Origin: a virus
DNA length: 25,886 nucleotides
Reading direction: 5' to 3' (one strand)
Virus record (IMG/VR): IMGVR_UViG_3300037628_000999
Coordinates: 1-25,886 of that record
The notes beneath the pieces were generated by a model that saw nothing but the letters and a program-made list of their open reading frames with translations, did not search any database and was not told the DNA's origin. A program made the translations under genes and the position numbers. This document shows, one piece after another, positions 4,728 through 20,139 of this stretch (its first letter is position 1; every line of letters starts with the position of its first letter).

Positions 4728-5818
4728 TGGCGACAATAACTAGTACTAGAACAGATTACAAAAACGCAGGTGATATAACGGATGCCCAGTGTGTAAGAAT
4801 TGTTAGAAAAGATGGTGAGATTTTACGATTCACTAATTCTGTAAATGATCTGGTGATGAGTGATTATGTCGATTCAGATGGTGTTCAATTATCCTTACCC
4901 AACGATGTCACCTATATCAGTATTGGATTTAATACAACCGCCACCCATAGTGGTAAGGATATGTCACCAGGAACTGTAGACCTAGAGGGTGTTCTATCAG
5001 CAACAAATATTTCTAGAAATGATTTGAAAAAGGGACTTTATAATCAGGCTAGGATTTATGTTTTTTATACAAACTATAATGATCCTGTTGAAGATGATGA
5101 AAAGCTCATTAGTGGTTTTTGGGGTGAAGCAACCGTTAACGATGGCACTTACTCGATAACTTTTAACTCATTGATTGATGTTCTTAACACTCGTACGGGT
5201 AAAAGTCACTCACCAACTTGTACAGCTCGATTGGGTGATGATAAATGTGGTGTTAGGTTGACACCACCTAATTGGTCATCATTAACAGCGTACACTGTAT
5301 TGGACCCCAATGACGCAAAATTAGGGTCCCTAGTTACACCAATTACTCAGACTGGCTTCTTTTACATTTGTACTATATCAGGTACTAGTGGTGTTAGCGA
5401 ACCCATATGGCCTATTGTGGTTGATGAGACTGTGAACGATGGATCAGTCGAATGGACGGCTATTTTACATTATACCCAGAATGGTTCACTGACATCGGTA
5501 GTTGATCGTTCTGGATTTGTTGATACTGACAGAACTGAACCCGACGATTGGTGGACTCAGGGTAAAATAATATTTACCAGTGGTGCAAATGAAGGAATGA
5601 CTTTTGATATAAAACAGTCATTCTTGGCATTCAATAGTATTAGTGTAAAACAGGAGGCTCCTTTTGATTTTGAAGTGGGGGACACTTACATTATTACGAC
5701 AGGCTGCCGTAAGAGACTTATAGAAGATTGTATAGGAGAATTCAAGAATGTCTACAATAACCAAAGCAGCCCATGGATACCAGGACGCTCAGTTATTGGG
5801 AAATTCGGTGGTCAATAA
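4727..5818 (+). CDS. Tail hub protein, DUF2163 (GTA g13-like), with inserted domain
   Basis: This 363-aa protein fits DUF2163/TIGR02218, the baseplate hub of GTA-like tails. The family core includes the N-terminal CVRIVRKDGEILRFT segment and the Cys motif SPTCTARLGDDKCGV at residues 162-175, with a second pair, GCRKRLIEDC, at 326-335. Cys165, 174, 327 and 335 are candidates to bind an iron-sulfur cluster, as described for hub proteins of this kind. Residues about 184-248 break the core with a module containing YICTISGTSGVSEPIW and DGSVEW, a pattern common in tail fibre add-on domains, making this protein longer than the usual 280-300 aa. Its 3' end overlaps the NlpC/P60 gene by 71 bases. Confidence 0.88.
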   Translation: MATITSTRTDYKNAGDITDAQCVRIVRKDGEILRFTNSVNDLVMSDYVDSDGVQLSLPNDVTYISIGFNTTATHSGKDMSPGTVDLEGVLSATNISRNDLKKGLYNQARIYVFYTNYNDPVEDDEKLISGFWGEATVNDGTYSITFNSLIDVLNTRTGKSHSPTCTARLGDDKCGVRLTPPNWSSLTAYTVLDPNDAKLGSLVTPITQTGFFYICTISGTSGVSEPIWPIVVDETVNDGSVEWTAILHYTQNGSLTSVVDRSGFVDTDRTEPDDWWTQGKIIFTSGANEGMTFDIKQSFLAFNSISVKQEAPFDFEVGDTYIITTGCRKRLIEDCIGEFKNVYNNQSSPWIPGRSVIGKFGGQ

Positions 5819-13240: not shown

Positions 13241-13249
13241 CACCACCAG
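13207..13249. terminator. Possible hairpin between convergent gene ends
   Basis: CTGGTGGT (13207-13214) pairs exactly with ACCACCAG (13242-13249) across the holin stop; the VRR-NUC stop lies at 13253-13255. Only 12 bases separate the two genes. There is no T-run, so a terminator is a weak inference from position. Confidence 0.25.
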
Positions 13250-13252
13250 GAC

Positions 13253-13726
13253 TCATGGAAGAGTCTTTATTATTTCCTCACTGTTAGCAAACCCACCAAT
13301 ACCACCTAATGATTTAACCACTTTATGGAACATGGCCTGGGCTTTTTCATGGTCGTTCCCTTTGTATTGCCAATCACCCCCCTTCACCTCAATTGCTGTA
13401 AATATACCAATCGTTTTACCGACATCCGCACGATGTACATTATGTGGAGTAATGCCAATCAGATCACTGGATTTAATTTTCCTGTTCATTCCGGTCGATT
13501 CATTAGCTAAACCGTATCTAATGAAGTTCCCATATTTATCCTCATATGCACCTACATTATTGCGCCATAATCTCATCCCCTTCTTACTTCCATCAAGTCT
13601 TATGCGTTGCTGGACACTTGCCTCACTCATCCTGGGATGAGTGATTTCAGGGTTAGGCTCATTCAGTAAATCACTAAGTGCCTCCAACGGTATATTCCAC
13701 TTAATAGCCCACTCGTTAATATTCAT
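13253..13726 (-). CDS. VRR-NUC domain nuclease
   Basis: This 157-aa protein has a VRR-NUC fold of the PD-(D/E)XK nuclease class, often fused or coupled to phage helicases and thought to process branched DNA. Residues 55-60 read RNNVGA, 86-92 SSDLIGI with Asp88, and 113-115 EVK (Glu113, Lys115), giving the catalytic D...ExK set. A 50-residue N-terminal extension (NEWAIKWNIPLEALSDLL) may bind DNA. Its ATG lies inside the 3' end of the upstream helicase gene (11-base overlap), so the two are translationally coupled. It ends convergently with the holin gene. The catalytic residues are all present. Confidence 0.9.
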   Translation of the reverse strand: MNINEWAIKWNIPLEALSDLLNEPNPEITHPRMSEASVQQRIRLDGSKKGMRLWRNNVGAYEDKYGNFIRYGLANESTGMNRKIKSSDLIGITPHNVHRADVGKTIGIFTAIEVKGGDWQYKGNDHEKAQAMFHKVVKSLGGIGGFANSEEIIKTLP

Positions 13727-15335
13727 CTATAATTACCTTTAATTTTTCAGCTTCTTTTTTGTCCAAAGTTTGGGCAGTTAAAACATCTATTTTAAATTTA
13801 ATAAAAAATAATTTTTGCCGTTCCCTTTTGTTGTACTTACCCTTATTGTGAGTAGACCACTTAGCCATACTTAAACGTAGTGCTTCCTGTGCCTCTTTCC
13901 GCTCATTGTGCCTTCTAATCACAGACCGACACACCATACTACCCTTTCTAATGGGTAGTGCTGGGTCATCACTGTCAATACGTGATATTTCCTTATGTAA
14001 TTCATCTATGGAACTGAAATCTAAGAGGGTTAGATCGCCGTCCACAAACTTAGGTGAACTCCTCACATCGGGAATATTGGTATTCCCACAATAGGGGCAC
14101 TCAGTATGAAATGCTTCATATACCCCTAGGCATTTACGGCATGATTTTAAAAGCATATGGTCAGGGTCAACCTTAGACTTACCTGTCTTTTCTTTTCTTT
14201 CGAGCGTCCAAAATCTATTTTGTGTCGGTAAACCATGCCGTAGTACATTACCAACGTGATCAATGATTATACCGTGGGATTTACCGGCCATTAATCTTAG
14301 TACCCTCCCAAATTGTTGGACATAAAGCCCATAGCTTGCTGTAGGTCGAGCAAAGCTGATTACCTCTATTGATGGTAGGTTGAACCCTTCTCCTAGAATA
14401 TCTACGTTTACTATTTGTAATATTCTACGTGCTTCAAAATCATCAAGGGTTTGAGCCCTTAGTTTGTCTGGGGTGTTTGCTGTTATTAAGGCACAAGGGA
14501 CACCTGCAGCTTTGAAATTTTCAACGGTTTGTTCGCCAACTTCAATATCAGGAACGAATGTCACGCCTAATTTACCACTAGCAAGTTTTAAATAGTGTTC
14601 CACAACATCGCCAGTGATTGTGGATTTCAGTGCGGCCTTACTTACTTGAGGTTTTGAAAAGTCACCAGATGGTGTTATATTAACAGAGCTTAAGTCTATA
14701 CTGGATGGTGGTGCATATATTTTAAACTTTGTTAGACTACCATTTTTTATGAGTTCGCCCATACTCATAGTGTTTTCTATTAATACGTCAAAGACGCCAT
14801 CATATTCTCTACCCAACCCTTTCCCATCCGCTCGTTCGGGTGTGGCGGTGACACCCAGACCCAGTGCGTTGGGGAATTTACCAATAGCCCTACCCCACGT
14901 ATTACAAGACAATATGTGGTGTGCTTCGTCTATAATCCACAAACCTACTCTTGACGGATCAATATTATCACGGTTAATGATTGTATTAACACTAGCAACA
15001 ATAACTGGTGCTTGCATTCTGAAATAGGAGCGTTTGAATTTTCTGACATGTCGTTTCTGTATGAACCCTACTGTTGACCTAGCAGCAATGATATTGTGCT
15101 CAATATCATTTTCAGCTAACGACATGCTCAGCTGACTAACTAATTCTTGTCTGTGTGCAATAACAACCACTAGCTTACTGGGGTGTAGTTGTTTGAACTT
15201 ATGGGTTATGTTAGATATTAAAACGGTTTTACCTGAACCCACCGAGCTTGTTAGTAATACATTTTTATTCCCAGCACCCCATTCATTGAACGTTTTATTA
15301 TGTAAATCAGCTTGATAATCTCTATATTCAAACAA
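13716..15335 (-). CDS. Superfamily 2 DEAD/DEAH-box helicase
   Basis: This 539-aa protein is an SF2 helicase of the SSL2/type III restriction-like group. Motifs in order: Walker A GSGKT (33-37), DEAH (136-139), TATP (163-166), GEGFNLP (313-319) and QQFGRVLR (338-345). Four Cys (CRKC 397-400 and CPYC 411-414) form a likely zinc ribbon after the motor, and the C-terminus is basic and helical. It probably remodels forks or recombination intermediates with the coupled VRR-NUC nuclease. The start is TTG at 15333-15335 with a strong AGGAG ten bases away; it lies in a mirror-image start region shared with the divergent gene at 15408. Confidence 0.92.
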   Translation of the reverse strand: MFEYRDYQADLHNKTFNEWGAGNKNVLLTSSVGSGKTVLISNITHKFKQLHPSKLVVVIAHRQELVSQLSMSLAENDIEHNIIAARSTVGFIQKRHVRKFKRSYFRMQAPVIVASVNTIINRDNIDPSRVGLWIIDEAHHILSCNTWGRAIGKFPNALGLGVTATPERADGKGLGREYDGVFDVLIENTMSMGELIKNGSLTKFKIYAPPSSIDLSSVNITPSGDFSKPQVSKAALKSTITGDVVEHYLKLASGKLGVTFVPDIEVGEQTVENFKAAGVPCALITANTPDKLRAQTLDDFEARRILQIVNVDILGEGFNLPSIEVISFARPTASYGLYVQQFGRVLRLMAGKSHGIIIDHVGNVLRHGLPTQNRFWTLERKEKTGKSKVDPDHMLLKSCRKCLGVYEAFHTECPYCGNTNIPDVRSSPKFVDGDLTLLDFSSIDELHKEISRIDSDDPALPIRKGSMVCRSVIRRHNERKEAQEALRLSMAKWSTHNKGKYNKRERQKLFFIKFKIDVLTAQTLDKKEAEKLKVIIDEY

Positions 15336-15416
15336 TTTTTAATTCTCCTAAATATTATGTTATAATATTTCATACGCTTATATAAATCAATTATTAGGAG
15401 AAATAAATTGTTTGAA
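15327..15416. promoter_or_regulatory. Mirror-image ribosome sites and TTG starts of divergent genes
   Basis: The arms are 15327-15350 and 15395-15416. Each reads outward as TAGGAGAA, a short A/T spacer of seven or five bases, then TTGTTTGAA, so both divergent genes have the same Shine-Dalgarno, the same TTG start and the same first codons (M-F-E). The two proteins are otherwise unrelated after that point. The arms flank the promoter region. Confidence 0.7.
15362..15390 (-). promoter_or_regulatory. Candidate sigma70-type promoter for the helicase operon
   Basis: Read on the minus strand, TTGATT (15385-15390) and TATTAT (15362-15367) are 17 bases apart, leading to the helicase ribosome site about 12 bases downstream of the -10 box. 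The only sequence between the divergent genes is this 72-base stretch. On the plus strand TATAAT occurs at 15361-15366 with a weak -35 (TTTAAT at 15338-15343), so overlapping divergent promoters are possible. This is a consensus match only. Confidence 0.4.
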
Positions 15417-15986
15417 TTGACAATCGGATTTACTACACTTGAAGAACTAGAGAGAGCGGTGGAAGCGCTTACAAACCTCCCTGGGTTCAATAGTACTCCA
15501 TTACCTATACCAACCCCGCAAGACCCGGTACCAATAGTTAGTGAGCAAGACCCGGTACCAATAGTTAGTGAGCAAGACCCGGTACCAATAGTTAGTGAGC
15601 AAGACCCGGTGCAGCCTGGTATTATGCAAAAAGTCATTGTACAAAAAGAGCAGCAACAACAAGCCTTATTGGACAAAAGCAACATACCATGGGATGCTCG
15701 TATTCATACAAGCACTAAGGGTCAAACAAAGCACGGGATATGGAAAAGAAAACCACGCATTGAAGATGAGTTCTTCAATGCGATTGTTGAAGAACTATCA
15801 AGTGGTAAATTAAATCATTCCCAGTTGTTGCAAAAAATGTTTGATGCTGTTGCGACTAGTAAAGTTTCAGTATGCACCATAGGTGATGCATTGAATGCCC
15901 TTGGTTTAAAAACTCTTGATGATGCTAGTGGTAAGCCTGAAATAATAGAGAGTTTAGCGAAAACACTAGGATTATCAGATGAGTGA
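15408..15986 (+). CDS. Unknown replication-module protein with exact QDPVPIVSE repeats
   Basis: This 192-aa protein opens the plus-strand replication block. The start TTG (15408-15410) has AGGAGA seven to twelve bases upstream. After about 37 residues come three exact QDPVPIVSE units plus a fourth partial one (residues about 38-67), a Pro-rich spacer, then a Gln-rich stretch. The C-terminal half has IPWDARIHTSTKGQTKHGIWKRK near residues 85-110, a WDxRIHxxxK...G.W(R/K)(R/K) motif common in uncharacterised phage proteins near replication genes, then helical segments. The function is unknown; binding to DNA or a replication partner is a guess from position. The stop overlaps the DUF2800 start. 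Confidence 0.8.
   Translation: MFELTIGFTTLEELERAVEALTNLPGFNSTPLPIPTPQDPVPIVSEQDPVPIVSEQDPVPIVSEQDPVQPGIMQKVIVQKEQQQQALLDKSNIPWDARIHTSTKGQTKHGIWKRKPRIEDEFFNAIVEELSSGKLNHSQLLQKMFDAVATSKVSVCTIGDALNALGLKTLDDASGKPEIIESLAKTLGLSDE
15519..15610 (+). repeat. Exact 27-bp tandem repeat, 3.4 copies, in frame
   Basis: Units 15519-15545, 15546-15572 and 15573-15599 are identical, followed by 11 matching bases to 15610. Each adds nine residues (QDPVPIVSE). With no base differences, the array is recent or maintained by slippage; unit gain or loss keeps the reading frame. Confidence 0.95.
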
Positions 15987-18305: not shown

Positions 18306-20139
18306 TATAGAAACCTACCCTAATATTTTTACTTTTGTTGCAAAACATGAACCCACCAATAGATGGGTGTGGTTTGAAATATCAGAACGGCGCAATCATA
18401 TAAAGAACTTATTCCAATTCCTTGTTTCTTGTTCTGATAATAAAATTAATATGGTTGGGTTTAATAATTTAGGTTTTGATTACCCGGTAATACACCTCTT
18501 ATTAATGAGGTACCAATATTTAGTAAATCAATCTGGATTAACTACTGCTTTTGAATTATATGAAAAAGCCCAGTCTATAATTGACTGTAGGGATAGATTC
18601 GCCCATACCGTAGGTACCTGGGATATTTTAATAAATCAAATAGACCTTTACAAAATACACCATTTCGATAACCACGCAAAGTCCACATCATTAAAAACTC
18701 TAGAATTCAACATGGGCAGTCGAACTATTGAGGATCTACCCTTTGAACCAGGGAAACCTGTACATATATGGAGTTTCAATCAGCTGATCGAGTACAATAT
18801 ACGGGATGTACTCGAAACTAGTAAATTTTTACATAAGTCAAAGAAACCATTGGAATTCCGTGAATCAATGTCGAAAATACTAGAGATGGATTGTACCAAT
18901 TTTAACGATGTAAAAATTGGTAAGCAGCTTTTTATAAGCAGACTAGAGAAACAAAACCCAGGATCATGTTATACAAAAAGGCCAAGAAAACCAAGGCAAA
19001 CACTACATGATTCAATCAATTTAGGTGAGGTGATACTGCCTTATATTAAATTTGAACGCACTGAATTCATAAAGATACAAGAATGGATTGCAGCCCAGAC
19101 AATTACCGAGACTAAAGGTACATTTAAAGGCCTAAATTGTACTGTGGATGACTTCAAATATGTTTTTGGATTAGGGGGCATCCATGGCTCAATCCCCTCA
19201 TCAATTGTAAGTAGTGATATTGATTATGTTGTACTTGAATATGATGCCACTAGTTACTACCCCCTATTGTCAATAGTGAACAAATTATATCCCGAACACT
19301 TAGGATTAGATTTTTGCAGTGTGTATCAAGAACTATTTGAACAGAGGAAGAAACACGATAAGGGAACAGTTGAGAATTCATCACTCAAGTTAGCGCTTAA
19401 TGGTGCCTATGGTTCTAGTAATAATAAATATTCCCCATTTTTTGACTCTCGATTTACCATGGCAATTACAATCAACGGTCAATTATCGCTTTGTATGCTG
19501 GCTGAACAATTGATCAAGATTCCGAATTGTTCAATGATTCAGATAAATACCGATGGTTTAAGTATTAAAATACCACGTATATACAGTGATGGCGCTAATA
19601 ATATTGTGAAATGGTGGGAAAGAATAACAGGATTAAACATGGAAAGGGTTGACTATTTGGCAATGTATATTAGGGATGTTAATAACTACATTGCCATTAA
19701 TTCCGATGGCAAACGTAAAAGGAAAGGGTGTTATGCCCATGGTGATGATCTGGGGTGGCATCAAAATCACAGTGGGCAAGTTATAGCAATTGTTGCAGAA
19801 CAGGTGCTAACAGAAGGTAAGAACCCCTTGAGTTGTTTATTACACCACCCCAATAAATTAGATTTTCTGATGTGCACAAAGGTACCTAGAAGTAGTAAGT
19901 TGTTGTTTGGTGGGCAAAAAGTGCAAAACATATGCCGCTATACAGTAACCAAAGAAGGTAAAGACTTAATTAAATTAATGCCACCATTGAAAGTCAAGAC
20001 AGAATGGCGTAAAATAGGTATTAATAAGGGATATAATATAACCTTATGTAATAACGTTAATGAAATAAATACAGATTTTGATTATTTATTCTATCTAAAT
20101 GAAGTCAACAAGATTACTAAACCACTACTTGGTAAATAG
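18283..20139 (+). CDS. DNA polymerase, family B-like with 3'-5' exonuclease
   Basis: From the ATG at 18283 this is 618 aa. The exonuclease has YDIET (Asp8, Glu10), NNLGFDYP (Asp66) and YNIRD (Tyr171, Asp175). The polymerase has motif A EYDATSYYP (Asp321), motif B KLALNGAYG (369-377) and motif C INTDGL (Thr423-Asp424). These are family B-type motifs, but motif C reads NTDG rather than DTDS, as in a group of phage enzymes. The length is short for family B. An upstream ATG at 18247 lies in frame inside the MazG gene but has no ribosome site; AAGGG precedes 18283, so I prefer that start. It is the replicative polymerase of this phage. Confidence 0.88.
   Translation: MKNLLSYDIETYPNIFTFVAKHEPTNRWVWFEISERRNHIKNLFQFLVSCSDNKINMVGFNNLGFDYPVIHLLLMRYQYLVNQSGLTTAFELYEKAQSIIDCRDRFAHTVGTWDILINQIDLYKIHHFDNHAKSTSLKTLEFNMGSRTIEDLPFEPGKPVHIWSFNQLIEYNIRDVLETSKFLHKSKKPLEFRESMSKILEMDCTNFNDVKIGKQLFISRLEKQNPGSCYTKRPRKPRQTLHDSINLGEVILPYIKFERTEFIKIQEWIAAQTITETKGTFKGLNCTVDDFKYVFGLGGIHGSIPSSIVSSDIDYVVLEYDATSYYPLLSIVNKLYPEHLGLDFCSVYQELFEQRKKHDKGTVENSSLKLALNGAYGSSNNKYSPFFDSRFTMAITINGQLSLCMLAEQLIKIPNCSMIQINTDGLSIKIPRIYSDGANNIVKWWERITGLNMERVDYLAMYIRDVNNYIAINSDGKRKRKGCYAHGDDLGWHQNHSGQVIAIVAEQVLTEGKNPLSCLLHHPNKLDFLMCTKVPRSSKLLFGGQKVQNICRYTVTKEGKDLIKLMPPLKVKTEWRKIGINKGYNITLCNNVNEINTDFDYLFYLNEVNKITKPLLGK

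Follow-up and report, generated by a model that had tools for sequence, protein, structure and literature searches.

The 72-bp gap from which a helicase gene and the gene of a 192-amino-acid partner protein diverge in this viral DNA is probably (with a rough probability of 0.6) a compact bidirectional promoter with mirror-placed ribosome-binding sites, while the further identity of the two start regions is best explained either by a coincidence confined to this lineage or by a single short copying event. The window, i.e., the whole stretch of DNA that was analysed, comprises a 25,886-base virus record, probably a partial genome, and none of 50,697 phage records matched it closely. Its tail genes are followed by a minus-strand gene pair and then by a plus-strand operon, with the following features at and around the gap:

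13253–13726, minus strand: endonuclease-like gene, paired with the helicase gene
13716–15335, minus strand: superfamily 2 helicase gene (ResIII/DEAD and Helicase_C; Pfam and PHROG), with a TTG start
15326–15338: left arm of the perfect 13-nt inverted repeat, covering the helicase start codon and first codons
15343–15350, minus strand: helicase ribosome-binding site TAGGAGAA, read from the sequence
15361–15367: predicted shared -10 element TATAATA, giving TATAAT after TGT on the plus strand and TATTAT on the minus strand
15385–15390, minus strand: predicted -35 element TTGATT of the helicase promoter, with a 17-nt spacer to TATTAT
15395–15402, plus strand: partner ribosome-binding site TAGGAGAA, read from the sequence
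15405–15417: right arm of the perfect 13-nt inverted repeat, covering the partner start codon and first codons
15408–15986, plus strand: divergent partner gene, 192 amino acids, phage PWDxRIH family, with a TTG start

The helicase matched Pfam ResIII (1e-24), Helicase_C (1.9e-11), and the DNA helicase family PHROG 16 (2.9e-89), and residues 88–132 of the partner matched the divergent gene adjoining the helicase in other phages. The plus-strand operon encodes, in order, the 192-amino-acid partner, a DUF2800 exonuclease, an Enc34-type single-stranded DNA-binding protein, a MazG-like protein, a DNA polymerase, and a primase. The partner gene also contained three tandem 27-nt repeats (15518–15610) with the nine-residue repeat QDPVPIVSE near the N-terminus, as well as a terminator-like hairpin on the minus strand (15756–15782), and another terminator-like hairpin was located on the plus strand at the junction of the tail-side genes and the helicase operon (13248–13267). 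No known RNA family or tRNA was found at the divergent gap, and an origin of replication was considered for the gap and not proposed, because the sign of the GC skew follows gene direction only.

The first-pass annotation had described both genes as starting with TTG TTT GAA downstream of TAGGAGAA and the gap as a near-perfect inverted repeat, and the sequence bears out both descriptions. The helicase start region reads TTTAGGAGAATTAAAAA-TTG-TTT-GAA-TAT on the minus strand and that of the partner TTATTAGGAGAAATAAA-TTG-TTT-GAA-TTG on the plus strand, such that the 13 nucleotides AAATTGTTTGAAT at 15405–15417 are perfectly complementary to 15326–15338. Together with the mirrored Shine-Dalgarno sequences, this repeat forms a quasi-palindrome, whose arms differ between ribosome site and start codon by a 2-nt difference in the length of an A-run and by one substitution. 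Both TTG starts were well supported by an upstream stop, a conserved motif, or the spacing to the ribosome site. For the helicase, an in-frame TAA two codons 5' of its TTG, together with the YRDYQ motif conserved at codons 4–8, leaves the TTG as the only usual start, the next one occurring not before codon 32; for the partner, the TTG lies 7 nt from AGGAG, with the next in-frame TTG 16 nt away. TTG starts were assigned to 3 of the 24 called genes in the window, two of them at the divergent pair. The 8-mer TAGGAGAA was also detected 5' of the ATG genes at 5748 and 12710, and a mirrored TAGGAGAA is thus expected wherever two such genes diverge.

Statistical analysis indicated that the mirror match is genuine but modest. 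Among the 276 start-region pairs formed by the 24 window genes, this pair had the longest shared run (13, followed by 11 and 10), and under a position-specific null the probability of a run of at least 13 was 6.5e-5 per pair and ~0.02 across all 276 pairs. An inverted repeat of this strength occurred in a fraction of 0.0055–0.0068 of 4000 position shuffles in which both ribosome sites were fixed, and in 0.015 of 600 shuffles under a second scheme fixing the promoter-like boxes, the starts, and the start-proximal bases, the mirrored pair having been chosen out of the whole window. Accordingly, the earlier claim that such a match is unlikely by chance held against a naive null, but the excess shrinks to a modest ~0.5–1.5% of shuffles once the sites are fixed, and the additional identity is of borderline significance. 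In related viral contigs, a run of 13 occurred once among 992 same-contig control pairs and never among 125 divergent pairs, and the divergent pairs showed no clear excess over the controls (p = 0.07). In these contigs, a mirrored start region at a divergent gene pair is no general sign of regulation, and its treatment as a general trait of divergent pairs was left unsupported by this comparison.

The divergent gene order is shared with other phages. Among the matches listed, the closest helicase relatives were 40–48% identical, with near records possibly absent from the collections; a search via the partner protein found no close relatives, and the exact mirrored motif had no match in viral contigs. 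The helicase stands opposite a divergent operon in Shewanella phage SppYZU01, Acinetobacter phage Scuro, Klebsiella phage JD001, and Vibrio phage CP-T1, and likewise in Edwardsiella phage MSW-3, with small extra genes. In several named phages, the helicase faces away from the gene of a PWDxRIH-type protein that is followed by an exonuclease and a single-stranded DNA-binding protein. As judged from these relatives, the divergent pair is ancestral, so the scar of a gene capture or inverted duplication raised by the first-pass annotation is not needed; gene capture or a large inverted duplication was rejected given the same divergent pair in several named phages, which also makes a chimeric assembly unlikely. 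Common ancestry of the two N-termini was rejected as well, as each protein conforms to the pattern of its own counterparts in relatives, the helicase to M-x-x-[LY]-R-x-[YF]-Q and the partner to M-x-x-[IL]-[TSN]-[IL].

The start regions themselves were not conserved. In 34 relatives (37 rows minus three copies of the window, with partners called by the PWDxRIH motif), the helicase began with ATG in 33 and GTG in one, and the partner with ATG in 29 and GTG in five, under a start scoring that favours ATG by construction; the helicase of locus L051 was called with TTG in a looser relative set. Start-region similarity was 5.21 within genomes versus 4.99 between genomes (p = 0.16) in 38 relatives, some of them near-duplicates, retained from 84 loci with a divergent open frame on the basis of a gap of 40–150 bp and a partner of at least 110 codons, and mirrored start regions were therefore rejected as a family-wide trait. 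Locus L041 had mirrored ribosome sites (TGAGGWAAATAAATG) with a shared run of 9. The first-pass annotation had suggested alignment with relatives and had named conservation of a single arm as evidence against its reading; neither outcome was obtained, as both arms differ in relatives whose helicases are at most ~48% identical.

The bidirectional promoter that had been proposed between the two genes is likely real, with start sites that are predicted. Both directions would be served by a single -10 element with reciprocal -7T/-11A positions (A at 15362 and T at 15366 on the plus strand, and T and A on the minus strand), placing the predicted transcription starts at 15373 (plus) and 15355 (minus), 18 bp apart, with predicted leaders of 20 and 35 nt. 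According to the available text of PMC10268837, the reciprocal -7T/-11A arrangement with an 18-bp start spacing is the commonest layout among bidirectional promoters, and the portions of PMC12825309 at hand describe such promoters as pseudo-symmetrical sequences to which polymerase binds in either orientation. Divergent starts 7–25 bp apart are expected of a bidirectional promoter with a shared -10 element, and the predicted 18 bp would fall in this range. The gap resembles such bacterial promoters (Warman/Grainger; PMC10268837, PMC12825309), as far as the excerpts describe them, in its reciprocal -7T/-11A, the predicted 18-bp spacing, and its location in a divergent gap, whereas it differs in its additional helicase -35-like box, its mirrored ribosome sites and start codons, and the predicted status of its starts.

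Comparison with the relatives uncovered a conserved promoter-like arrangement at this locus. In 43 of 84 loci, the 600 bp upstream of the helicase contained a face-to-face TTGAC-N29-34-GTCAA pair, and in a separate count, 34 of 43 box pairs were spaced by 31–34 bases (near-duplicates included in both counts). Of 70 occurrences in 748 kb, 44 fell upstream of the helicase, and five other spacing bands of TTGAC...GTCAA yielded 0–4 loci each. Moreover, -10-like hexamers were present between the facing boxes of relatives. The boxes themselves have the appearance of -35 elements belonging to two divergent promoters that overlap, and the pair is a strong candidate for a bidirectional promoter of this overlapping type across the family. 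Carriers include the loci L004, L005, L008, L028, L041, L048, L058, L069, and L089; in L089, the region upstream of the helicase also holds a very strong inverted repeat with a score of 19.5 (18.5 in the window), which surrounds mirrored -35-like boxes and reaches the ribosome sites. In addition, short TTGAC-N6-GTCAA palindromes (e.g., TTGACGGTACGGTCAA) were detected upstream of the helicase in L018, L019, and L037, which are possibly the operator of a dimeric regulator, and downstream of the helicase, several named relatives have a gene with the annotation "putative TetR transcriptional regulator".

The window shares with the carriers of the facing TTGAC pair (SppYZU01, Scuro, CP-T1, and IMG/VR contigs) the gene pair, the divergent order, and a similar distance of the helicase -35-like box, which lies at about the position where relatives have TTGAC. 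Unlike them, it has lost the partner-side box, and its -10 elements coincide, whereas theirs lie a few bases apart. A relaxed scan for TTGA[CT]-N26-36-[GA]TCAA between the two window genes returned none, and only the helicase-side -35-like box is retained; since the second TTGAC box is absent, the promoter of the window was inferred from weak matches. Promoter scanning of the surrounding 6 kb gave 17 sites versus 17.1 in shuffles, and such scans alone are no evidence. A literature search listed no account of a promoter at this locus.

Taken together, a two-way promoter would separate two operons of a tailed phage, that of the helicase and that for recombination and replication. Each transcript would carry a short leader along with a strong ribosome site like those used elsewhere in the phage. 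As both transcripts would use TAGGAGAA, an inverted repeat of the two facing sites is unavoidable. The mirror identity beyond these sites (AAATTGTTTGAAT, including both TTG starts) would be particular to this lineage and have no shared regulatory role, arising from coincidence among A+T-rich start regions or from one inter-arm copying event. Pure coincidence is uncomfortable, given that the pair is the best of 276 and holds two of only three TTG starts in the window. A template switch, whereby one arm was copied onto the other during replication together with the TTG start and the first codons, is a possible though doubtful account of the whole similarity. The quasi-palindrome would have been seeded by the facing ribosome sites, and a single event would give both TTG starts, consistent with an identity that runs from the ribosome site via the start into codon 4 and is broken by the length of the A-run and one substitution. 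Template switching is described in the available text of PMC8604942 as homogenising arms and making quasi-palindromes more perfect, changing coding codons too. Furthermore, in 26 relatives hand-chosen from 42 loci (near-duplicates and unusual spacings dropped, except L018 at 21), the flanks of the TTGAC boxes matched at 7.69 of 20 positions within genomes versus 6.43 of 20 between genomes (p = 1e-4). This excess was largest at zero shift, with most shifted comparisons at ~0, but it also appeared at shifts of -1 and -3. Inverted repeats reached p ≤ 0.05 with motifs fixed in 7 of 26 non-redundant relatives (six near-duplicates having been dropped, one of them with p = 0.037), and L041 likewise mirrors its ribosome sites. 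However, 43 of 254 tandem gene gaps in the same contigs also reached p ≤ 0.05, compared with 8 of 32 gaps at the helicase–partner locus (Fisher p = 0.19, also 0.16; plain shuffle as the null for tandem gaps and dinucleotide shuffle for the helicase–partner gaps), such that the divergent gap is not clearly special and the idea of inverted repeats peculiar to it was weakened. A before/after state was seen in no close relative.

The remaining alternatives assign a function to the mirror. Insulation against read-through is an unlikely one, according to which RNA entering from outside would pair the two arms and hide the ribosome site and start, whereas RNAs from the internal promoter, without the far arm, would stay open. 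Both 106-nt strands (15320–15425) were predicted to fold strongly (-22.6 and -25.1 kcal/mol; z of -4.9 and -5.1) with ribosome site and start paired, and the predicted promoter-born leaders were unstructured (z of 0.17 and -0.19). There is a precedent in T4 gene e, where, according to the available text of PMC3014915, a leader hairpin hides the ribosome site and start in long but not in short transcripts. The window would resemble that account in a ribosome site and start hideable in long and free in short transcripts, and would differ in that its hairpin is predicted, would affect both divergent genes, and is not conserved. On the other hand, such a hairpin follows automatically from any mirrored arms, hairpins with z < -3 were found in only 5 of 38 relatives and mostly centred on -35-like boxes, and the terminator-like hairpin at the tail-side junction is already located where the upstream plus-strand genes end. 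A similarly improbable composite holds that recurrent arm-to-arm copying perfects the quasi-palindromes of divergent promoters, which here spread the TTG and adjoining codons, and that the hairpin silences both genes in read-through RNA.

A translational regulator shared by both starts, as suggested by the first-pass annotation, is unlikely, and the specific form in which one RNA-binding repressor of the T4 RegA type would act on AAAUUGUUUGAA at both starts is highly improbable. The sequence AAAUUGUU at both starts resembles the 5' part of the RegA SELEX consensus aaAAUUGUUAUGUAA given in the available text of PMC3014915, but RegA sites include AUG in an A+U-rich context, and the window match, although A+U-rich, contains the UUG start instead at both genes. 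The relatives have retained neither arm. When up to two mismatches were allowed, the window contained no additional copy of the 13-mer in a start region; the only two other matches, one with a single mismatch and one with two, lie at minus-strand positions 19022 and 24598, away from called starts. Moreover, no RegA-like protein (PF01818) was detected in 11 records (the window, probably partial, and 10 related records) in a search run without a positive control, and none of the 20 window proteins scanned against PHROGs was a regulator; the absence of such a regulator is inferred.

For the biology of these viruses, a useful result is the conserved facing promoter-like pair between the helicase and recombination operons in a broad phage group. 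If the further identity of the start regions came from one copying event, it would represent a clean natural template switch by which an unrelated gene had its start codon and N-terminus rewritten.
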